Shown: positions 3,625-35,219 of the stretch, piece after piece
Numbering within the stretch: the stretch's first letter is position 1
Layout: each line of letters starts with the position of its first letter
NCBI GenBank assembly: GCA_947631045.1
Contig: CANRJV010000005.1
Location: 1 to 48,549, forward strand
Source of the DNA: an uncultured Bacilli bacterium
Lineage (GTDB): Bacteria; Bacillota_I; Bacilli_A; RF39; UBA660
DNA length: 48,549 nucleotides
Direction of reading: 5' to 3'
Translations under genes and position numbers: made by a program
The notes under the pieces: model-generated
Databases searched by the model: none
Seen by the model: the letters and a program-made list of their open reading frames with translations, nothing else
Told to the model about the DNA's origin: nothing

Positions 3625-5703
3625 TTATTTTCCTTTCTTTAATCCTTTATAATTTTTTAAAAATTTTTTAATTCCATATCTTTTATTAAAAGCAACACTA
3701 ACAAATCGGTCTTCTACGGCAATAACTACCCCTTTTCCAAAAGTTAAATGATTAACAATATCGCCACTTTTATATTCTTCATTAGTATCTTGATATAATT
3801 CATCTTTCGGAGTTTTCTTCTCTTCCATAACATTCGATTCAATATATTTAGGATCTATTTCCCCAATAAAACGAGATGGTGGATTAAGCATATCTTTACC
3901 ATAAAGCATTCTTAATTTGGCATTAGTAATATATAATCTTTCTTTCGCTCTGGTAATTCCGACATAACATAATCTTCTTTCTTCTTCGATACCTTTATCT
4001 TCCCCAAAAGAATTGATGTGCGGCATGATTCCTTCTTCCATTCCGACCATAAAGACTACTTTAAATTCCAAACCTTTAGCGGAATGGAAAGTCATTAAAG
4101 TTATTTCATCATCATCTTCCCGATGTTCCGTAACATCCGCAATTAAACTAACTTCATCTAAGAAATCTTGTAAATTAACACTACCCGTAATATTTTGATA
4201 ATTTTCGGTAATACTTCTAAATTCCATTAAGTTTTCTAAACGAATATCGGCTTCTAAAGTATGCATTTTAGTAAGTTCTTCTTTCATCCCACTACGCTCT
4301 AAAACTAAATCAATTAATTCCGTTAATGAAACATCTAAAGAGGCCTTAGTTAATTCTTCAATCATCTTTTTAAATTCTAATTCTTTACCTGAAGAAATGG
4401 CTTCGAACATTGAAGTATTATCTCTAGTAGCTTTGCCATTGATGCCTTCAATAGTCTTAAGGCCAATACCTCTTTTAGGTTCATTAATAATTCTTTCTAA
4501 AGAAACATCATCATCATGATTAGCAATTAATTTTAAATAACTGATTAAATCTTTAATTTCTTTTCTTTTGTAGAAATAAAAACTACCAACCACTTTATAG
4601 GCTAAACTATTCTTAAGAAGAGCCTCTTCATATATCCGGGACTGGGCATTAGTCCGATAAAAAATTGCTATATCCCTTTTATTATATCCAGAAGCTAGTA
4701 AATCTTTAATTTCATTTACTACAATATTAGCTTCTTGAAGGCCATCATTACTTCTTAAATATTTAACTTTAACACCTTCTCCTAGTTCACTAAATAAATT
4801 AACTTCTTTTCTTTCGGTATTATTTTTTATAACCGAATTTGCCACATTTAAAATAGTTGTTGTACTCCGATAATTTTGATTTAAAACAACTACCTCGGCA
4901 TCAGGATAATCTTTTTCAAAATTTAAAATATTTTTATAATTAGCTTGTCTAAAACCATAAATAGCTTGATTTTGATCGCCAACGACAAAAATATTACGAT
5001 ATTTACCCGCTAAAAGTTTAATTAATTTATATTGAACTTCATTAGTATCTTGATATTCGTCAACTAATATATATTGATATTTTTCTTGATATAAATTTAA
5101 AATATCTTTATTTTTTAAAAATAATTCAACGGGTAATTTTAATAAATCATCAAAGTCAATAACATTATTTTTACGTAAAGTTTTTTCATAATCAAAATAA
5201 ACTTCCGCCGCTTTTTTCTCCACATCACTTAAAAAGTAACGGGTAATTTCATTTTCATTTAACATTTCATTTTTAATAAAACTAATCCGATTACGAATAT
5301 AAGATGGCGCAATCTCTTTAGGATTCATACCAAGTTCCTTCATAATTTTTTTGATAATCGTAATAACATCATCAGAATCGATAATGGTAAAATTTTTGCT
5401 AAGTCCCATTTCAGCATAATTTTCTTTAATAATTCTTAACCCAAAAGAATGGAAAGTCCCTACAAAAGCATAAGAATTACTAACTAGCTTTCCCACTCTT
5501 TCTTTCATCTCTTTGGCGGCTTTATTGGTGAATGTTATAGCTAAAATATGACTACTATAAATGCCACTATCAATAAGATAAGCTATTCTCGTTGTCAGCA
5601 CTTTAGTTTTACCAGAGCCGGCTCCCGCAACAACAAGACATGGGCCATCAATATGCATAACAGCTTCTTTTTGTTCTTTATTTAAATTGTCTAAATATTC
5701 CAT
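3625..5703 (-). CDS. pcrA: ATP-dependent DNA helicase PcrA (UvrD/Rep family)
   Basis: 692 residues. A superfamily 1A 3'-5' helicase that unwinds DNA in repair and clears RecA filaments and replication obstacles. Walker A GAGSGKT is at 27-33. Motif II is VDEYQDTN, motif III GDQNQAIYGFRQA, and the C-terminal motifs TFHSAKGLEFKVVF and EERRLCYVGITRA are present. The tail (GDIVNHLTFGKGVVIAVED) is the PcrA-type C-terminal module that contacts RNA polymerase in Bacillus. The ATG at 5703 follows AGAGGTTAGAT. It is the first gene of the pcrA-nucleotidyltransferase-ligA operon. Confidence 0.97.
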   Translation of the reverse strand: MEYLDNLNKEQKEAVMHIDGPCLVVAGAGSGKTKVLTTRIAYLIDSGIYSSHILAITFTNKAAKEMKERVGKLVSNSYAFVGTFHSFGLRIIKENYAEMGLSKNFTIIDSDDVITIIKKIMKELGMNPKEIAPSYIRNRISFIKNEMLNENEITRYFLSDVEKKAAEVYFDYEKTLRKNNVIDFDDLLKLPVELFLKNKDILNLYQEKYQYILVDEYQDTNEVQYKLIKLLAGKYRNIFVVGDQNQAIYGFRQANYKNILNFEKDYPDAEVVVLNQNYRSTTTILNVANSVIKNNTERKEVNLFSELGEGVKVKYLRSNDGLQEANIVVNEIKDLLASGYNKRDIAIFYRTNAQSRIYEEALLKNSLAYKVVGSFYFYKRKEIKDLISYLKLIANHDDDVSLERIINEPKRGIGLKTIEGINGKATRDNTSMFEAISSGKELEFKKMIEELTKASLDVSLTELIDLVLERSGMKEELTKMHTLEADIRLENLMEFRSITENYQNITGSVNLQDFLDEVSLIADVTEHREDDDEITLMTFHSAKGLEFKVVFMVGMEEGIMPHINSFGEDKGIEEERRLCYVGITRAKERLYITNAKLRMLYGKDMLNPPSRFIGEIDPKYIESNVMEEKKTPKDELYQDTNEEYKSGDIVNHLTFGKGVVIAVEDRFVSVAFNKRYGIKKFLKNYKGLKKGK

Positions 5704-5720
5704 ATCTAACCTCTAAAACA

Positions 5721-5749
5721 ATTATACCATTTATAAATATTTTCGTCAT
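5721..5749 (-). promoter_or_regulatory. Sigma-A-type promoter for the pcrA operon
   Basis: Read on the minus strand: ATGACG, 17-bp spacer, TATAAT with an extended TGG before the -10. It lies 18 bases upstream of the pcrA start. Confidence 0.7.
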
Positions 5750-5884
5750 TAAAAAGGCTAACTTATTTTAGTTAATTTAACAATTTCTGGCTTATATTAT
5801 TTTACTAAATCAAGCCTATAATTATTATTTACTATTTTAACTATTTATACTATAATACTTGAAAACCAAAAAAGGAGATAGCTT

Positions 5885-6898
5885 ATGATAAATGATTTTT
5901 TCGAGTTAAACAATCCCGCTGCTTTTCAAAATGTTGCGAACTCTAAAATAATTAAAAAAGCTCAAGCAATCATTGTTAATGATGGGATTGATCCCTTTGT
6001 ATATAACGAAAAACCTTATCATGTCTCTACTCAAAACCAAAGATATTTACAAGCTGTTTTGCCAGATAATTTGCAAAATGCTTGTATTATTTTAGGAGCC
6101 GGTGATACTTTATTTGAACTTTTAAGAAGAGAAATACTTGATATAACGGCGATAGAAATTAATGAATTACAAGCCTTAGTTTATAAATTAAGACGGGCAT
6201 GTATTCTAACTTTAAGTCCCAGAGAATTTGATAAATTTATTGTTGATCCATCAGGTAGGCAATTTCTAGATAAAGAACTATTTAAAACAATTCTTAATGG
6301 TTTTGGCGATGATAAAGAAGCTATTAATTTTTGGAAAACTTTACTTACCATAAATCCTTCGATAGATATTAAAGAACATTTTTTCAAACCAACAGATTCC
6401 TATAATATAAGTGGTGTAAGGTATTCTTTACAATATTTAAAAAACAAATCTTATTATTATGAATTACGAAATTATCTTATGCAGGCAAAAATAAAAATTA
6501 TAATCGATGATGCTTTTAATTATTTTGCTCAAAATAAAGATATTCATTTTGATTATATCGATTTTAATAATATTTTATTATTCGTTTATCAAGCCGATTG
6601 CCGATGGGATATTGAACTTTTTAAAACCAAAATAAAAGCTTTACAAGAAATATATAATAACAATTTAAATATAGGTGGAACACTTACCCTCGATTATCAA
6701 TTTGGGATGGTTAAATCTCATGTTGAAAATTTATTAAGGCAATCTATTCCCGCAAATAGTCCAGCCGATATTATTTATTCTCAGTTATATGAATTATTAA
6801 ATAATGCTTTTATGTTAGAAAGTTATCAAGTAGAAAGAATTATAAAAAGTGGAGATAATCCAATGGATACAGTTTATTTTTCTCGAAAATTAAAATAA
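5885..6898 (+). CDS. Uncharacterised protein with a possible SAM-binding (DUF3419/BtaA-like) fold
   Basis: 337 residues with no signal peptide. Residues about 65-110 read CIILGAGDTLFELLRRE, then ITAIEINELQALVYKLRRA: a glycine-rich motif I and an acidic strand end (AIEIN) as in class I SAM-dependent enzymes. The run LQALVYKLRRACI resembles the LLELK-type segment of DUF3419 proteins (BtaA-like aminocarboxypropyl transferases that make betaine lipids). Most of the rest is unrecognised, so this is a hypothesis. AAGGAG 7 bases before the ATG and TATAAT at 5851-5856 support the start and a private promoter. It is a single-gene unit ending in a bidirectional terminator shared with the tRNA gene. Confidence 0.7.
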   Translation: MINDFFELNNPAAFQNVANSKIIKKAQAIIVNDGIDPFVYNEKPYHVSTQNQRYLQAVLPDNLQNACIILGAGDTLFELLRREILDITAIEINELQALVYKLRRACILTLSPREFDKFIVDPSGRQFLDKELFKTILNGFGDDKEAINFWKTLLTINPSIDIKEHFFKPTDSYNISGVRYSLQYLKNKSYYYELRNYLMQAKIKIIIDDAFNYFAQNKDIHFDYIDFNNILLFVYQADCRWDIELFKTKIKALQEIYNNNLNIGGTLTLDYQFGMVKSHVENLLRQSIPANSPADIIYSQLYELLNNAFMLESYQVERIIKSGDNPMDTVYFSRKLK

Positions 6899-6902
6899 TA
6901 GA

Positions 6903-6934
6903 AAAACTCGAACTTGTATAGGTCCGAGTTTTAA
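6903..6934. terminator. Bidirectional terminator
   Basis: AAAACTCG (6903-6910) pairs with CGAGTTTT (6925-6932). ACTT/AGGT extends the stem after one mismatch, closing on a GTAT loop. It has U-runs in both directions and serves the plus-strand gene ending at 6898 and the minus-strand tRNA. Confidence 0.85.
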
Positions 6935-6942
6935 TGTTAATC

Positions 6943-7019
6943 TGGTGTTCTTGAAGGGAATCGAACCCTTGGCCTTACGCGTCGGAGGCGTACGCTCTAT
7001 CCAACTGAGCTACAAGAAC
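6943..7019 (-). tRNA. tRNA-Arg (anticodon CCG)
   Basis: Read on the minus strand. The acceptor GTTCTTG pairs with CAAGAAC, the D-arm is GCTC...GAGC, the anticodon stem TACGC/GCGTA encloses loop CTCCGAC (anticodon CCG, decoding CGG), and the T-arm is AAGGG TTCGATT CCCTT. The 3' CCA is encoded (6943-6945). TATAAT at 7031-7026 with an extended TGT lies only six bases before the mature 5' end. Confidence 0.97.
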
Positions 7020-7054
7020 AACCTTATTATAACATTAATTTTTCATTTAGACTA

Positions 7055-9232
7055 TTATTTTCTTAATCTTAAAGAATTAAAAATAACCGTTAAACTACTT
7101 AAAACCATAGAAAGACTTGCTAACATAGGATTAATACTTAAACCAAATTCTTTAAACAAACCCATAGCAATAGGAATCATAAACAAATTATAGATAAAAG
7201 CCCAGAATAAATTTTCTTTAATGATTTTTATTGTTTTTTTACTTATATTAATTAAATCAATAATTTTTTCTAAATTATCATTCATTAAAATAACGGAAGC
7301 TGAATTAAGGGCAATATCAGTTCCCCCGCTTATAGAAACTCCCACCAGGGCACTTGCTAAAGATGGGGCATCATTAATACCATCACCAACCATCATAACT
7401 TTTTTACCCTTTTTATTTAAATCTTTAAGATAAATCACTTTATCTTGCGGAAGTAAATTAGCTTCCACATTATCTATTTTTAACTCTCTAGCAACTTTTT
7501 TCGCCACTTCTTCACTATCGCCACTTAAGATAACAACTTCTTTACCCATTTTTTGTAAAGAGCTAATAACTTCTTTAGCATTATTTCGAATAACATCTTT
7601 AACCCCAATTAAGGCTACTACTTCTTTATCGATAATAACATAAATGATACTGCACTCATTTTTGGTTAATGATTTTTCTTCTTTTTCATAAGTATTTTTT
7701 ATTTTTAATTTAGTTAGTAGTTTATTATTTCCAATATAAATTTGATGATTTTGAACTACCCCTTCTAAACCAATGCCCGCAATATTTTTAAATTTTTCGA
7801 CTTCTCTTTTAGTTTCATAATCTTTAAAAGCATAGGCAATGGGATGAGTAGAATTTTTTTCTAAATCAGAAACAAATTCAAGAATTTCTTGATCTTGGAA
7901 TTTACTATAATTAATTATTTTAAAAACTTTTAATTTACCATAAGTAAGGGTTCCTGTTTTATCAAATATAATGCTATCTACTTTATGAGCATTTTCTAAT
8001 ATTTCTCCACTTTTAATTAGAATTCCTTTTTTAGCAGAGGCACCTTCACTAACTACAATGGCTAAAGGAGTTGCAAGTCCTAAAGCACAAGGACAAGCTA
8101 CCACCAAAACAGTCACAAAAGCCGTCAAAGCTTCATTAAACGAAAAACCTAAAAGTAAATAACCGATAAAAGTTAAAATTGAAATTAGAAAAATGCCAGG
8201 AACAAAATAACCACTTATCGTATCAGCTAAATAACCAATCGGTGCTTTACTATTTGTAGCTTCCACTACTAACCGAACTACTTCCGAAATAGTTGAATCA
8301 GGCCCTATTTTATGAGCAACATATTCAACATAACCATCCATATTTAGGCTTCCCGCAATAACCTTATCATTTTTACCTTTACGCGATTTGGCTGTCTCAC
8401 CAGTAATAAAAGCTTCATCAAAATGGGCTTCTCCTTTACTTATAAATCCATCTACAGCTACTTTCATTCCGGGTTTACAAACCAAAATATCACCTTTTTT
8501 AACTTCATCAATGGTTACTTCTTTTATTTCTTCACCAACTTTTAGTAAAGCTACCTCAGGCGTAATTTGAACTAATTCTTTAATGGCTTCTTTCGTTTTT
8601 TCTTTCGATTTTTTATCAATAAAGCGGCCTAATTTAACAAAGTAAATAATCATAGCGCACGATTCAAAGTATAAATGATGAACAAGATGATGATGCCCAT
8701 TTATAACTAAAATTAAATTAACTAAACTATAGATAAAACTGGCAAGTAATCCAACAGTTACTAAAGAATCCATATTTGGAGATCTTTTCACTAGTTTTTT
8801 AAAACCACTTTTGAGAATATCAAAGCCATAAATTAGAAAAGGAATAGTTAAAATGACCAGACATAATCCATAATTAATAGGATATTTCATCATATCTAAA
8901 AAAGGAATTACGGGTAATTTTAACATGCTTCCCATGGAAACATACATTAGAAAAACACCAATAAAAGCTAAAATTATTAAATATATTTTATTATAATCTT
9001 TCTTCTCTTCTTCCATTGGATTATATTTTCCTAAACTTTTATAACCGGCTTCTTCAACAAATCTATTTAAATCATCTATTGTAAGTTTATCATCATATTC
9101 TATTGAAGCTTCCGCCATTACTAAATTAACTTTAGCCTCAATTACTCCCTCTTGTTTATTTAAATATTTTTCTAAAGTATTTTGACAAGCACTACAACTC
9201 ATACCTTCAATTTTTAAAATCACTTTAGCCAT
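7055..9232 (-). CDS. copA: Copper-translocating P1B-type ATPase
   Basis: 725 residues. It pumps Cu(I) out of the cytoplasm using ATP. One N-terminal heavy-metal-binding domain has GMSCSAC (Cys13, Cys16). Membrane segments follow, with the A-domain TGE (AFITGETAKSRKG), the transport motif CPC in VACPCALGLATPLA, the phosphorylated aspartate in FDKTGTLTYGK, the HP pair in STHPIAYAF, and GDGINDAPSLA near the C-terminus. A single metal-binding domain is typical of Bacillota CopA. No CopZ chaperone or CsoR/CopY regulator is adjacent. AGGAGG precedes the start. It shares a transcript with the remnant ORF at 9261-9383. Confidence 0.96.
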   Translation of the reverse strand: MAKVILKIEGMSCSACQNTLEKYLNKQEGVIEAKVNLVMAEASIEYDDKLTIDDLNRFVEEAGYKSLGKYNPMEEEKKDYNKIYLIILAFIGVFLMYVSMGSMLKLPVIPFLDMMKYPINYGLCLVILTIPFLIYGFDILKSGFKKLVKRSPNMDSLVTVGLLASFIYSLVNLILVINGHHHLVHHLYFESCAMIIYFVKLGRFIDKKSKEKTKEAIKELVQITPEVALLKVGEEIKEVTIDEVKKGDILVCKPGMKVAVDGFISKGEAHFDEAFITGETAKSRKGKNDKVIAGSLNMDGYVEYVAHKIGPDSTISEVVRLVVEATNSKAPIGYLADTISGYFVPGIFLISILTFIGYLLLGFSFNEALTAFVTVLVVACPCALGLATPLAIVVSEGASAKKGILIKSGEILENAHKVDSIIFDKTGTLTYGKLKVFKIINYSKFQDQEILEFVSDLEKNSTHPIAYAFKDYETKREVEKFKNIAGIGLEGVVQNHQIYIGNNKLLTKLKIKNTYEKEEKSLTKNECSIIYVIIDKEVVALIGVKDVIRNNAKEVISSLQKMGKEVVILSGDSEEVAKKVARELKIDNVEANLLPQDKVIYLKDLNKKGKKVMMVGDGINDAPSLASALVGVSISGGTDIALNSASVILMNDNLEKIIDLINISKKTIKIIKENLFWAFIYNLFMIPIAMGLFKEFGLSINPMLASLSMVLSSLTVIFNSLRLRK

Positions 9233-28202: not shown

Positions 28203-29150
28203 ATGCATGAACAAGATTATTTTAATGAAATAAAAGAAATAATAGAAAATACCGAAGTAAATAAAAGAGTTAGAGAATATAAAAATAATTATGATGATTT
28301 AATGGCTAAGTGGAATATTGGAAAATTATTAGTTGAGGCCCAAGGTGGAGAAAAAAGAGCTAAATATGGCGATGGATTAATTAAGAAGTGGTCAGAAATA
28401 TTTTCTAAAGAGTATGGAAAACAATATAGTCGAAGTAACATGTTTTATATGCGCCAATTTTTTATGAATTTTCCAATTGTCCAACCACTGGTTGGACAAT
28501 TAACATGGTCTCATATCATTAAATTATTACCAATTAAAAATGAAAATGAAAGGAATTATTATATTAATCAAGTTATTTTAAATAATTTGTCTAAAAGAGA
28601 ATTAATTAATGAAATTAAAAGCCACACTTTTGATAGGCTTTCTTATGCTGATAAAGAAAATATTAAATTAATAACTAATAAAAAAGATAAATATAATTTA
28701 ACTCTATCAGATATGATTAAAGATCCTATAATTATTAAAACTGATAAAGATATTAATAACTTAAATGAAAAAGCTATTCATAAATTGCTTATCGAAATGT
28801 TAGAGCAAAGATTTCTAGAGTTAGGCTTGGGATTCACACTTGCAGGCCATGAATATCCTTTAAAAATAAATAATGAAACTTATCATGCGGATTTATTATT
28901 TTTTAATTATGAAATAAATGCTTTTGTCGTTGTAGAGGTTAAAAACAAAGAATATAAACCATCACAAATAGGTCAAGTAAGATTTTATATGGATTATATA
29001 GATAAGAATATCAAAAAAGAACATCATGATAAAACAGAAGGAATACTAATAGTTAAAGAAAAAGATAAATATGTTATGAAATATATAAATGACAAAGGAA
29101 TATATATAACATCATTCAAATTATTAAATAATATCAAAGAAAAAATATAA
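28203..29150 (+). CDS. DUF1016/PDDEXK nuclease family protein (YhcG-like), copy 1
   Basis: 315 residues. The N-terminal DUF1016 domain (NIGKLLVEAQGGEKRAKYGD, then LTWSHIIKLLP) is followed by a C-terminal PD-(D/E)XK nuclease domain with Asp230 in YHADLLFF and Glu245-x-Lys247 in VVVEVKNK. YhcG-type proteins are linked to mobile-element defence and DNA processing; the target is unknown. The gene is a tandem duplicate of 29263-30198: the first 75 residues are nearly identical, and the middle and nuclease domain diverge. Codons for residues 92-100 form a perfect 27-bp palindrome. Confidence 0.88.
   Translation: MHEQDYFNEIKEIIENTEVNKRVREYKNNYDDLMAKWNIGKLLVEAQGGEKRAKYGDGLIKKWSEIFSKEYGKQYSRSNMFYMRQFFMNFPIVQPLVGQLTWSHIIKLLPIKNENERNYYINQVILNNLSKRELINEIKSHTFDRLSYADKENIKLITNKKDKYNLTLSDMIKDPIIIKTDKDINNLNEKAIHKLLIEMLEQRFLELGLGFTLAGHEYPLKINNETYHADLLFFNYEINAFVVVEVKNKEYKPSQIGQVRFYMDYIDKNIKKEHHDKTEGILIVKEKDKYVMKYINDKGIYITSFKLLNNIKEKI
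28475..28501. repeat. Intragenic perfect 27-bp palindrome, nuclease copy 1
   Basis: Arms aattgtccaacca and tggttggacaatt (13 bp each) around a single c. It encodes I-V-Q-P-L-V-G-Q-L in the DUF1016 domain. Confidence 0.97.
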
Positions 29151-29191
29151 TAGTTTAGAATATGTTTAGTGAAAATTTCTTCTTTTTTGAC

Positions 29192-29255
29192 ATCTTCGAC
29201 AAAAACTGACAAAATAAACATATCATGTTTGCTATAATACATCCTCATCGGAGGA
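29192..29255 (+). promoter_or_regulatory. Promoter and 5' hairpin of the second DUF1016 nuclease
   Basis: Extended -10 TGCTATAAT (hexamer 29233-29238), nearly identical to the copy before the first nuclease gene. TCCTC (29242-29246), loop ATCG, GAGGA (29251-29255) hides the Shine-Dalgarno. Confidence 0.6.
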
Positions 29256-29262
29256 AATATTT

Positions 29263-30198
29263 ATGCATGAACAAGATTATTTTAATGAAATAAAAAGTAT
29301 TATTGAAAATACCGAAGTAAATAAAAGAGTTAGAGAATATAAAAATAATTATGAAGATTTAATGTCTAAATGGAATATTGGAAAATTATTAGTTGAGGCT
29401 CAAGGTGGCGAAAAAAGAGCTAAGTATGGTGATGGATTAATTAAAAAATGGGCCGAAATATTTTCTAAAGAATATGGAAAACAATATAGTAACAGAGAGT
29501 TAAGAAAAATGCGACAATTTTATCGGTTATTTCCAATTTGGCCGACACTGTCGGCCAAATTAAGTTGGTCACATATAATAGAGTTATTGACACTCCAAAA
29601 TGAAAACGAAAGAAACTATTACATTAATCAAACTATCTTAAATAATTTATCGATAAGAGAACTAAGAAAAGAAATTAAAAACCAAGCTTTTGAAAGGCTT
29701 TCCTATGCTGATAAAGAGAATATTAAATTAATAACTAATGAAGAAAAAAATTATAGTTTAACATTATCTGATATGATTAAAGATCCCATTATTATTAAGA
29801 CAGATAAAGATATTAATAGCTTAAATGAGAAGGCTATTCATAAATTATTAATTGAAATGATTGAAGATGGATTTTTAGAATTAGGTACGGGATTCGCTCT
29901 TGTTGGTCATGAATATAAAATAATTAAAGATAATATAACTTATAAAATTGATTTATTATTTTTTAATGTTAAATTAAATTGTTATATACCTATAGAAGTT
30001 AAAAATCGTAATATAACGGCAGAAGATATTGGTCAAATAGAATTTTATACTCATTTAATAGATAACAATGTTAAAGAAAAATATCACAATCCCACTATTG
30101 GTCTTATTTTAGTTAAAAAGAAAAATCAATATGTCTTAGAATATGCTACGGGAAAAAATAATATTTTTGTCTCTAGTTATTTATTAGAAAAAATTTAA
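29263..30198 (+). CDS. DUF1016/PDDEXK nuclease family protein (YhcG-like), copy 2
   Basis: 311 residues, paralogue of the preceding gene. The catalytic set is conserved: Asp230 in YKIDLLFF, Glu245 and Lys247 in IPIEVKN. The specificity-like middle differs (SNRELRKMRQFYRLFPIWPT versus SRSNMFYMRQFFMNFPIVQP), while DPIIIKTDKDIN and LNEKAIHKLLIEM are kept, so selection appears to retain both. Its palindrome lies at the same codons (residues 92-100) but with a different sequence. Each copy has its own promoter cassette, so they can be expressed independently. A defence or addiction role is inferred from the family. Confidence 0.88.
   Translation: MHEQDYFNEIKSIIENTEVNKRVREYKNNYEDLMSKWNIGKLLVEAQGGEKRAKYGDGLIKKWAEIFSKEYGKQYSNRELRKMRQFYRLFPIWPTLSAKLSWSHIIELLTLQNENERNYYINQTILNNLSIRELRKEIKNQAFERLSYADKENIKLITNEEKNYSLTLSDMIKDPIIIKTDKDINSLNEKAIHKLLIEMIEDGFLELGTGFALVGHEYKIIKDNITYKIDLLFFNVKLNCYIPIEVKNRNITAEDIGQIEFYTHLIDNNVKEKYHNPTIGLILVKKKNQYVLEYATGKNNIFVSSYLLEKI
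29535..29561. repeat. Intragenic perfect 27-bp palindrome, nuclease copy 2
   Basis: Arms aatttggccgaca and tgtcggccaaatt (13 bp each) around a single c. It encodes I-W-P-T-L-S-A-K-L at the same codons as in copy 1. Confidence 0.97.
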
Positions 30199-31903: not shown

Positions 31904-34900
31904 TTAAGCTTTAGTTATTTCGACTAAAACTTTAATACCATTGACATTAATTTCTTCTTGATCTAAATGTTTAGAAATAATTTCTTTAGCTAAAGTTTCA
32001 TTTTGAATATATTCACTAAACTTAGCAATTACCTCGGAAAATTCTTCGCTATCATAATAGATAATAATCCGATCACTTATATCTAAACCAATAGTTTTTC
32101 GCATGTTTTGAATTTTAGAAATAAATTCCCTGGCATGGCCTTCTAAAATTAAATCTTCTGTTAAGTTAGTATTTAGAATAATGAATAGATTATCGATTAC
32201 TCCAACATTAAAACCTTCTTTAGAAGCAATTTTAATTTCATACATATCTTTAGTAATAACCGTCTCATTAAATTTCATTTCTTTATGAGTTAAATCATCT
32301 AAAGAAGTATGTTGTAAAAATTCTTCATATTCTTTAATTTTAGCCCCAAAGATTTTACCAACTTCTTTATAATTTGGTTTTAGAGAAATATTCATATATT
32401 TCGATAATTCATCTTCATGATTAATCACTTTAACATTTAATTCTTCTTCAATTAAAGGAACTAAATCAGTAATTTTATCATAAATTGCACTTTCAATAAT
32501 CGCTTCTTTAAGAGGAGTTCTTACTTTAATCTTCGCATCTTCTCTAACCATCCGACCTAGAGAAATTAAATTACGAACTAAATCCATCTTTTCTTCTAAA
32601 GCTTCATTAATTAAACTTTCATCATATTTTGGAAAATCTTCTAGATGAACAGAATAATTACCTGTTAAATGTGTATAAACCTCTTCACTAATATAAGGAA
32701 CAACCGGAGCAATTATTTTAGATAATCCAACTAAAACTTCATAAGTCGTTTTATAAACAGCTTTTTTTGAATTGTCTAAAGCACTACCCCAGAACCGATT
32801 ACGGCATCTTCTTATGTACCAATTAGATAAATCTTCAGAAACAAAATTGGTAATAATTCTCACAACTTTATTTAAATCATATTCCTCATAACCATTAGTT
32901 ACTTCTTTTAACATACTATTATATTTGGAAAGAAGCCATTTATCGATTTCTTCTCGGTCTTCTACTTTTACATCACATTTATCAATATCGATATTATCGG
33001 TAGTCGCATACATACTGAAGAAATTATAAGTATTTTTTAAAGGGTTAAAGAATTTCGAATAAACTTCTTTTAAACCATCTTCATCAAATTTTAATGGAGT
33101 CCAAACGGGAGATACATAAGGAAGATACCATCTAACCGTATCAGCTCCATACTTCTCCATTATCGTAAATGGTTCAATGGCATTACCTTTAGATTTATGC
33201 ATCTTTTGTCCATTTTTATCGAGTAATAATTCATTAACCAAAACATTCTTATAAGGAGATACTCCTTTCACAAAAGTGGAAATTACTAAAAGTGAATAAA
33301 ACCATCCTCTTGTTTGGTCAATTCCCTCACAAATGAAATCGGCTGGGAATTGACTTTCAAATAATTCTTGATTTTCAAAAGGATAATGATATTGAGCAAA
33401 AGGCATTGAACCAGAATCAAACCAACAATCAATAACGTCTTTACATCTACTCATCGTTTTACCACATTTAGGACAAGTAATATGAATATCATCGACATAA
33501 GGGCGGTGAAGTTCAATAGATTCATCAATATCTTCAATCGCTCTTTCCACAAGTTCACTCCTAGAACCAATCATCTCATCATGGCCACATTCACATCGCC
33601 ATAAAGGAAGCGGTGTTCCCCAATAACGAGAACGAGAAATAGCCCAATCGTTTAAATTTTCTAACCAATTGCCAAATCTTTTTTCCCCAACATAAGCCGG
33701 ATACCAATTAACGGTATTATTATTTTCAATAATTTTATCTTTTATCTTAGTAATTTCTAAATAAAATGATGGCTTAGAATAATAGATAAGGGGTGATTTA
33801 CAACGCCAACAATGCGGATAATTATGGACCATTTTTTGTTTTTTAAATAATTTATCATTTTCTTTTAAATATTTAATAACTTCTTTATCCGCATCAAAAA
33901 CAAGCATGCCTTTCCATGGGCCTTCCGTATAACAACCATCTTCTCCCACCGGATTTAAATAAGGTAAATTATAATTTTTACCAACATTGGCATCATCTGC
34001 CCCATAAGCGGGAGCAATATGAACAATACCAGTTCCATCTTCCATCGTAACATAATCATCACAAGTAACAAAGAAAGCTTTTTTATTAACTTTTAATTCG
34101 GGAATTAATTGTTCATATTCCGTATATTCTAAATCTTTGCCTTTATAAGTTTCTAAAACTTCATAAGAATCGCCTAAAACTTTAGAGGCCAATTTTTCCG
34201 CAATAATAAACTTATAATCCATGCTTTTAACTAAAACATAGTTTTCGTGAGGATTAACACAAATAGCCACATTGGCAAGAAGAGTCCATGGAGTTGTGGT
34301 CCAAACTAAGAAATAGACATCTTCATCTTTTTTCTTCATTGGAACAATAACCGTTTCTACTGATACTTCTTTATAACCTTGGGCTACTTCATGGGAAGCA
34401 AGTCCTGTGCCACACCTAGGACAATATGGAAGAATTTTACTTCCTTCATAAAATAATCCCTCATCAAAGAATTTCTTTAAAATCCACCATTCGGTCTCAA
34501 TATAATCATTTTTATAGGTTATATAAGGATTCTTTAAATCAATAAATTGACCCATTTTATTAGTTAAATCAGCAAAGGCTTTTTCATTTTCCCAAACGGC
34601 TTTCCGACATTCTTCATTAAATTTTTCAATACCATAATTTTCAATGTCACCTTTAGAAGAAAAACCTAATTTTTTTTCGACTTGAACTTCTACCGGAAGC
34701 CCATGCGTATCCCAACCAATTTTTCTTAAAACTTTATAACCTTGCATCGTTTTATATTTACAAAAAGTATCTTTTAAAAATTTGGCTAACATATGATGAA
34801 GTCCTGGCATACCATTGGCTGTTGCTGGTCCATCATGAAAAACCCAATAAGGACTCTTATCCCGATTTTTAATACACTTATCTAATATATCATCTTTAAG

Positions 34901-34969
34901 CCATTTTTCTCTAATTTCTTCTTCTACTTTAGATACTTCTCGGTTATCTAAACTTTCAAATTTTCGCAT
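31904..34969 (-). CDS. ileS: Isoleucyl-tRNA synthetase
   Basis: 1021 residues from the ATG at 34969 (MRKFESLDNREV), which follows AAGGAGATG. An in-frame extension to 35050 only translates the T-box. It charges tRNA-Ile. The class I HIGH region is GPATANGMPGLHH, the PG[IL]HH variant seen in a subset of IleRS, and the KMSKS motif is QKMHKSKGN. The editing domain contains WTTTPWTLLANVA and the T-rich pocket. Zinc-like CPRCG, CWRCK and CPKCG motifs lie along the chain, and the tail is long, as in type 2 IleRS, many of which tolerate mupirocin. Control is by the T-box leader upstream. Confidence 0.96.
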   Translation of the reverse strand: MRKFESLDNREVSKVEEEIREKWLKDDILDKCIKNRDKSPYWVFHDGPATANGMPGLHHMLAKFLKDTFCKYKTMQGYKVLRKIGWDTHGLPVEVQVEKKLGFSSKGDIENYGIEKFNEECRKAVWENEKAFADLTNKMGQFIDLKNPYITYKNDYIETEWWILKKFFDEGLFYEGSKILPYCPRCGTGLASHEVAQGYKEVSVETVIVPMKKKDEDVYFLVWTTTPWTLLANVAICVNPHENYVLVKSMDYKFIIAEKLASKVLGDSYEVLETYKGKDLEYTEYEQLIPELKVNKKAFFVTCDDYVTMEDGTGIVHIAPAYGADDANVGKNYNLPYLNPVGEDGCYTEGPWKGMLVFDADKEVIKYLKENDKLFKKQKMVHNYPHCWRCKSPLIYYSKPSFYLEITKIKDKIIENNNTVNWYPAYVGEKRFGNWLENLNDWAISRSRYWGTPLPLWRCECGHDEMIGSRSELVERAIEDIDESIELHRPYVDDIHITCPKCGKTMSRCKDVIDCWFDSGSMPFAQYHYPFENQELFESQFPADFICEGIDQTRGWFYSLLVISTFVKGVSPYKNVLVNELLLDKNGQKMHKSKGNAIEPFTIMEKYGADTVRWYLPYVSPVWTPLKFDEDGLKEVYSKFFNPLKNTYNFFSMYATTDNIDIDKCDVKVEDREEIDKWLLSKYNSMLKEVTNGYEEYDLNKVVRIITNFVSEDLSNWYIRRCRNRFWGSALDNSKKAVYKTTYEVLVGLSKIIAPVVPYISEEVYTHLTGNYSVHLEDFPKYDESLINEALEEKMDLVRNLISLGRMVREDAKIKVRTPLKEAIIESAIYDKITDLVPLIEEELNVKVINHEDELSKYMNISLKPNYKEVGKIFGAKIKEYEEFLQHTSLDDLTHKEMKFNETVITKDMYEIKIASKEGFNVGVIDNLFIILNTNLTEDLILEGHAREFISKIQNMRKTIGLDISDRIIIYYDSEEFSEVIAKFSEYIQNETLAKEIISKHLDQEEINVNGIKVLVEITKA

Positions 34970-34982
34970 AAAAACATCTCCT

Positions 34983-35219
34983 TCTTTAAAAAAAATCCAT
35001 AAACAAAAGGGCGAAATTACCGCGGTACCACCTTTATTTATGAATTTCATTCATCTTCCTATTTTAACGCATCGCTGCGAGGCCAAAGTACTCTTCTTTC
35101 CTTTGGTTAGCTCCTAAGGGATATAAATTAAATCCTTTTTATTAGTTTGCACCAACCACTAATTCTCTTTAAAAAGTCCTTTAATTTACGTGTCTTATTC
35201 ATCGCCTTTAAATTTATAC
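34983..35219 (-). ncRNA. T-box riboswitch controlling ileS
   Basis: T-box AAAGGTGGTACCGCGG with TTTCGCCCTTT reads on the minus strand near 35037-35000. Stem I is long, with AGTGGTTGGTGCAAACTAAT and a specifier-loop sequence TTTATATCCC giving AUC (Ile). ATAAATAAAGG and CCTTTTGTTTAT enclose the antiterminator, followed by ATTTTTTTT. Uncharged tRNA-Ile should promote read-through. Confidence 0.95.

Follow-up and report, generated by a model that had tools for sequence, protein, structure and literature searches.

The initiator nucleases encoded by gene A of phiX174 and gene A of P2 have their origin inside their own gene. The operators lac O2 and gal OI lie inside coding sequence, and the regulator binds both upstream of and within the gene. 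Noc, a relative of ParB, reads position 6 of its half-site with residue 201 (Jalal et al., on ParB/Noc, PMC7383237). YhcG was described as a PD-(D/E)XK protein whose helical N-terminal domain was of unknown type (Kosinski et al. 2005, PMC1189080). Rickettsia palindromic elements are 100-150 nt long and dispersed over many genes (PMC4316617).

The genes analysed here are YhcG family members by plain membership (PF17761 followed by PF06250, PMC1189080), the nuclease being a PDDEXK enzyme with a Holliday-resolvase/NucS-like core. The family literature treats the N-domain as an unknown helical domain without a DNA site. In contrast, we consider it probable, on sequence grounds, that DUF1016/YhcG proteins are PDDEXK nucleases in which a ParB/Noc-like HTH N-domain binds one palindromic site carried by their own gene, with autoregulation as the likeliest function. 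The site, the residue-to-base code and the ParB-like fold that we propose are new for the family. No earlier report of the palindromic site was found in a search of non-subscription literature on DUF1016, YhcG, PDC-S02 and palindromes. The models of PDC-S02, a PADLOC candidate defence gene, were matched by all five members tested, but this is an HMM match only and defence is only a candidate annotation. As in the phiX174 and P2 initiators, the gene of the enzyme would contain the enzyme's DNA site. However, the enzyme class is different, the initiators have a single fixed site and DUF1016 genes many co-evolving ones, and no origin function is shown for DUF1016. The combination of upstream and in-gene binding that we propose for a gene on an Arthrobacter plasmid resembles that at lac O2 and gal OI, but these operators lie in the gene of a regulated enzyme, whereas the DUF1016 sites lie in the gene of the regulator and nuclease itself, where its own DNA-binding domain is encoded. 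Rickettsia palindromic elements likewise form palindromes within ORFs without disrupting them. Unlike these elements, DUF1016 palindromes are mostly 17-33 bp long, at one site and of varied sequence.

The window, the whole stretch of 48,549 nucleotides that was analysed, contains two tandem DUF1016 genes on the plus strand. In both, Pfam detected PF17761 (DUF1016_N) followed by PF06250 (YhcG_C), above the gathering scores. Copy 1 (28203..29150, 315 aa; 111.7 bits for PF17761 and 101.6 bits for PF06250) is predicted from these matches and an AlphaFold2 model to combine a ParB-like N-terminal DNA-binding domain with a YhcG_C PDDEXK nuclease. Copy 2 (29263..30198, 311 aa) is 68% identical to it. 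The closest named homologues of the window genes were from uncultured Bacilli MAGs. Each copy has a perfect 13-1-13 palindrome, a feature of the DNA that belongs to neither strand: AATTGTCCAACCA-C-TGGTTGGACAATT in copy 1 (28475..28501) and AATTTGGCCGACA-C-TGTCGGCCAAATT in copy 2 (29535..29561). Both run from the third base of codon 91 to the second base of codon 100 and are the proposed cognate sites. The preliminary description had reported both 27-bp palindromes at identical codons, with six arm positions that differ between the copies and are each compensated in the opposite arm, and its coordinates, sequences and count were exact. The two are the longest palindromes within the window, and at least one arm of 13 bp or more arose in only 2 of 60 simulations of the whole window under a first-order Markov model.

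On either side of the palindrome lie codons for a helix. The predicted recognition helix of copy 1, RSNMFYMRQFFMN (codons 77-89, 28431..28469, plus strand), is a helix in the model and co-varies with arm positions 5-9 through residues S78 (x), F81 (z) and Y82 (z'). Its second helix, WSHIIKL (codons 102-108, 28506..28526, plus strand), would pair with arm positions 2-4 through S103 (W+1) and I106 (W+4), judging from the model and from covariation. In copy 2, covariation places the predicted recognition helix at codons 77-89 (29491..29529, plus strand), with R78 (x), R81 (z) and K82 (z'), and the proposed inner-base-reading helix WSHIIEL at codons 102-108 (29566..29586, plus strand).

We found eleven DUF1016_N places in the window's own genome, an assembly of 1.3 Mb in 81 contigs. 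Eight had a perfect 27-bp palindrome of the form AATT-N7-CA[C/G]TG-N7-AATT, two further members had palindromes of 17 and 19 bp at the same codons, and one divergent member had none. Perfect palindromes of this form, and near-copies of the copy-1 site, were confined to DUF1016 genes: the pattern AATT-N7-CASTG-N7-AATT had nine matches genome-wide, of which eight were these genes and the ninth was not palindromic, and the copy-1 site at up to 3 mismatches occurred only in the two genes sharing it.

Homologues were sampled from genomes of the same genus, the phylum, a second Bacillota set and Elusimicrobiota (presumed phylum), together with plasmids, one phage and E. coli. After duplicate removal 298 genes were scored over the segment from the helix to WSH. 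Arms of at least 8 bp were present in 67.1% of them, against 1.7% under a synonymous-codon null (20 rounds that kept the protein unchanged and drew on the codon usage of the gene) and 0.7% in other parts of these ORFs. For arms of at least 11 bp the values were 34.6%, 0.18% and, in other ORF segments, 0.06%. The excess of palindromes in homologues under protein constraint, on which the preliminary description had made its case depend, is thus present. That paralogues carry palindromes was borne out, but the feature is not limited to two paralogues or to gut Bacillota and extends to much of the family across several phyla. Arm lengths elsewhere included 15 bp in Acidisarcina, 14 in Rhodococcus and Burkholderia, 13 in Glaesserella and Citrobacter, 11 in Curtobacterium and 21 in Adhaeribacter. 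The palindrome of E. coli K-12 yhcG is AAAGATTTGGCAGACGCTGTCTGCCAAATCTTT; a search with this site gave 7053 places, all chromosomal, and among the matches listed every one was in yhcG/DUF1016. In Elusimicrobiota too there was no dispersal of such palindromes, which occurred as single copies in 5 of 150 genomes. The family was rare in viral contigs (profile scans, two of three of them without any relative), where the pattern TTGTCCAACANNTGTTGGACAA had no match.

The position of the palindrome is nearly constant, with its centre at codon position 1 in 196 of 198 cases, and 191 of 202 palindromes have C (111) or G (80) at the centre. Its sequence is not: 90 distinct 7-base half-sites were counted across the family, so no single DNA element explains the palindromes. 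Sites were identical in 1 of 79 pairs of paralogues within a genome, compared with 13 of 1146 pairs between genomes. As this gives no signal of avoidance, we do not claim orthogonality beyond general diversity.

The bases of the arm followed residues of the protein. Genes were anchored on the helix motif x-N-L-z-z'-M and on W-[STG]-H, and clade-weighted mutual information between residues and arm positions gave a diagonal code, with Z-scores of 9-21. In this code x (N-1) corresponds to arm position 7, z (N+2) to 8/9, z' (N+3) to 5/6, W+1 to 3/2 and W+4 to 4. G7 was found in 63 of 64 genes with R at x and in 8 of 138 with other residues. All 74 genes with an aromatic z had T8, and 45 of the 63 with K or R at z had G8. 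A3 accompanied WSH in 104 of 112 genes and WTH in none of 53, and C3 accompanied WGH in 25 of 25. These combinations, G read by arginine at x or by K or R at z and T next to an aromatic residue, are unremarkable in direct readout. After collapsing the genes into 18 clusters at 45% identity, Fisher tests still gave p=8e-5 for R with G7 and 3e-5 for aromatic with T8. When bases were predicted from clades less than 40% identical, the fraction correct was 0.79 at position 3, 0.82 at position 4, 0.71 at position 7 and 0.87 at position 8, compared with 0.20, 0.14, 0.27 and 0.65 for the commonest base. Half-sites were also more alike where the helix immediately preceding the palindrome was more alike, with a partial r of up to 0.32 in protein pairs less than 45% identical; the maximum r in 300 permutations was 0.10, against 0.27 for the tested helix block. 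This helix was the only segment outside the palindrome that was clearly predictive, the rest of the N-domain and the downstream segments predicting little.

The window genes mostly conform to the code. Copy 1 has C7 and T8 with S78 and F81, and copy 2 has G7, G8 and A3 with R78, R81 and S103, all as predicted. Copy 1 departs from the position-3 rule in having C3 with S103, one of the 8 exceptions among the 112 WSH genes. The arm changes that co-vary between the two copies obey the code and are therefore matched by changes in helix codons just outside the palindrome.

The AlphaFold2 model, made from copy 1 and 40 homologues, had an overall pLDDT of 72. Helices were modelled at residues 59-71 and 77-89, with a pLDDT of about 90, and at 102-108; the palindrome codons encode the modelled loop 90-101. 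The best structural matches of the modelled N-domain were the DNA-binding domains of ParB and Noc, among them the DNA complexes Spo0J-parS (4umk, Z 9.3 over 111 residues) and Noc-NBS (6y93, Z 9.2), a moderate resemblance to be read with caution since a Z under 13 is weak for helical domains. Spo0J was also the sole PDB sequence match of two profiles, with non-significant E-values of 0.012 and 0.31. Its alignment places the DUF1016 helix over the ParB HTH helix and W[S]H over the ParB SMGH. If the alignment holds, Noc residue 201 would correspond to W+1 and position 6 of its half-site to the third base from the dyad. The predicted DUF1016 binding would then share with ParB/Spo0J-parS and Noc-NBS a palindromic site, a recognition helix and the reading of the third base from the dyad by the residue before a conserved H (cf. 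Noc R201 and position 6, PMC7383237). There are also clear differences. The Pfam scan found no ParB family and hence no ParB N-terminal CTP-binding domain, the HTH-like part beginning near the N terminus of the protein and a PDDEXK nuclease following it. Every DUF1016 gene comes with a site of its own, located within it or beside it and not at oriC, and most DUF1016 sites are odd-length with one central base. The C-domain model resembled the PDDEXK enzymes BpuSI, NucS/EndoMS and Hjc, and the catalytic D-(D/E)xK was intact in all 271 genes with a complete C-domain. On a Nostoc plasmid (L204) and on the Arthrobacter plasmid (L358) the DUF1016 gene has a ParA-family gene a short distance upstream, which is suggestive beside a ParB-like domain.

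Not all sites were within the gene. In 22 of 303 genes an upstream palindrome was found in place of one in the gene, starting 41-47 nt before the predicted start codon in one clade and several singletons. Some genes had a palindrome in both places, such as the Arthrobacter plasmid gene, in which the two are the same palindrome (CAATTGTCCAGACACCGTCTGGACAATTG in the gene and CGTCAATTGTCCAGACACTGTCTGGACAATTGACG just upstream), and about one tenth of the genes had neither. A clade with the helix S[VIM]SNLKYM (loci such as L001, L029, L135 and L138) lacked the in-gene palindrome; some of its members had one upstream and in others none was found. Ten palindromes off the canonical codon site, nine non-coding and one near the N terminus of L346, agreed with 28 of 29 code predictions. 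These ten were picked by eye, leaving out low-complexity and promoter-like palindromes, and even-length upstream palindromes were scored as if the central base were missing. The preliminary description had offered selection on a DNA self-recognition site as one reading, and this now has strong support: arm bases can be predicted from helix residues in clades unrelated to one another and for palindromes in non-coding flanks, and the modelled fold resembles that of ParB/Noc on DNA. We conclude that the palindrome is probably the protein's own cognate double-stranded site, which the gene itself appears to contain.

From the palindrome, its fixed place, the code and the non-coding copies that obey it, all of which can be read in the DNA, we infer physical binding, dimerisation and function as follows. 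A presumed dimer would bind one palindromic double-stranded site through the ParB/Noc-like HTH N-domain. In most members the site would occupy fixed codons between those for the recognition helix, which it follows directly, and those for the W[S/T/G]H helix; a minority would have it about 45-20 bp ahead of the start codon, and some would have it at both positions. When the reading residues change the site would change along with them, and both arms at once because the two halves of the dimer have to read one arm apiece, which would explain the co-varying arms of the paralogues. The bound protein may repress or limit its own nuclease gene, the upstream site acting as an operator and the in-gene site as a roadblock or auxiliary operator. 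As the site would be inseparable from the codons that determine specificity, any gene moved by transfer or recombination would always bring a matching operator. An operator-like site upstream, a site in the gene, sometimes both, and an intact nuclease make autoregulation of a dangerous nuclease our first choice of function, although all other functions taken together are about equally likely.

Among these other functions, we tentatively keep self-targeting or exclusion as the leading one, in which the binding is the same but the palindrome is also a cleavage or nicking target and its purpose is not regulation. This could take the form of a nick in cis, of the kind made by phage initiators with the origin in their gene, of conversion of one paralogue by another, or of an attack on incoming elements that carry the gene as well. 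A role as recombination target, which the preliminary description had also suggested, is conceivable. The active-site residues intact in 271 of 271 genes are consistent with it, as are a site that lies within the gene and is single-copy in the genome, the frequent location of the genes on plasmids or beside integrases, and the occurrence of paralogue families. However, an unconditional activity would damage the host's own gene by cutting its single chromosomal site, and no protective methylase was consistently found in the neighbourhood. A mobile palindromic element inserted in the gene, of the Rickettsia or REP-like kind, might account for the in-frame strings of palindromes in some genes and for the copies that four viral contigs and a Rhizobium plasmid have outside DUF1016 genes. 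It is nevertheless improbable, as the codon phase is constant in 196 of 198 cases, there are 90 different half-sites, the window sites are not dispersed in the genome, and the palindrome sequence tracks the helix.

An mRNA structure was among the earlier suggestions, and as a hairpin it could be selected for control of translation or for stability of the RNA; the palindrome does lie in the transcribed strand and its upstream variants are near the start codon. Among near-perfect palindromes, collapsed by clade, arm mismatches were 27 A-C against 14 G-T, although an RNA stem, in which G-U is tolerated, should give the opposite bias. Without a G-U excess the RNA hairpin was rejected on mismatch types; the centre base, moreover, is mostly C (111) or G (80), and a stem would not explain the helix code. 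An Rfam scan detected no family at the palindrome site, no intrinsic terminator (stem and T run) was called at either window palindrome, and no promoter that matters was found there. We regard the hairpin as very unlikely, and the same holds for hairpin-templated repair or template switching, which would keep the arms identical without selection. Such repair is a known mutational process for quasi-palindromes, and the persistence of perfect palindromes in decayed gene remnants agrees with it. Put forward earlier as the alternative to selection, repair alone is not supported because it gives the arms no reason to track a helix encoded elsewhere, and it predicts neither a preference for this site (other segments, 0.7%) nor a code between residues and bases. 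Finally, the helix residues might co-vary with the palindrome-encoded loop through protein packing, palindromy being a separate matter. Although the arm positions do fall in codons, position 7 of the code is a third-codon base on the left arm, and palindromes off the canonical site agree with the same code in 28 of 29 predictions, which mostly removes this objection. We give packing hardly any credence.

Several loci had more palindromes than the proposed mechanism calls for. Locus L066 (G031 contig C29, bases 5700-9100) has an intact DUF1016 gene preceded, over a distance of 1.1 kb, by about ten orphan palindromes at positions 351-1345, spaced about 40-200 bp apart. Their specificities differed and are ones seen in-gene in relatives, and they stay perfect while their surroundings are decayed DUF1016 fragments or have no homology left. 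Smaller arrays were found at L042, L064, L075, L324 and L269. E. coli K-12 yhcG (L216, 5828-6955) had three in-frame palindromes 39 nt apart and a further one, ATTCTGCAGACASTGTCTGCAGAAT, centred 28 nt after the stop codon. Its helix-adjacent site has one mismatch, and a perfect but non-cognate palindrome lies 78 nt downstream. Other E. coli alleles (L352, L353 and L354) had one or two. The in-frame palindromes of these yhcG alleles all fall between the helix and the conserved helix that follows it, at a spacing of 36-39 nt. In 11 genes with several in-frame palindromes the code fitted 84% of checks at the helix-adjacent palindrome, compared with 54% at the later ones. Many E. coli yhcG alleles (H161-H175 and L354-L357) are IS-interrupted or truncated, and the gene is often lost.

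Autoregulation does not need perfect palindromes of other specificities. The orphan palindromes are either leftovers of earlier specificities or kept for a reason. One such reason, which we find doubtful, is that the palindrome might be a DNA identity tag: the nuclease would act on, spare or be switched by DNA according to a matching tag, and the orphans would be a repertoire of tags kept against sister nucleases, much like the orphan immunity genes of polymorphic toxins. If true, tag reading would be a system of self and non-self recognition in which one short stretch of DNA serves as part of the coding sequence of an enzyme and also as its recognition mark. DUF1016-class palindromes (TTCCAGACASTGTCTGGAA or close to it, with arms of 12-13 bp) were also seen with no DUF1016 gene in the stretch examined, in the viral contigs L342 (5566), L343 (8092), L344 (5376) and L345 (3210) and in a Rhizobium plasmid (L360, 2514).

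For the DUF1016/YhcG family, which is widespread, represented in E. coli K-12 and so far without a known function, the analysis predicts a type of DNA-binding domain. Most members now have a concrete candidate DNA site, and the amino-acid-to-base code lends itself to tests with oligonucleotides. The arrangement is unusual in that part of the DNA-binding domain is encoded by the sequence that it seems to recognise, which forces protein and site to co-evolve. The hundreds of natural protein-site pairs are a ready data set on the evolution of DNA-binding specificity. In three loci (L206, L207 and L209) the end of an integrase gene coincides with the DUF1016 start codon or lies just ahead of it, and the two genes may form an operon on mobile DNA. 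Elsewhere in the window, a T-box leader lies on the minus strand at 35004-35211, upstream of a 1048-aa ORF (31904-35050), an ordinary arrangement of the aminoacyl-tRNA-synthetase type.
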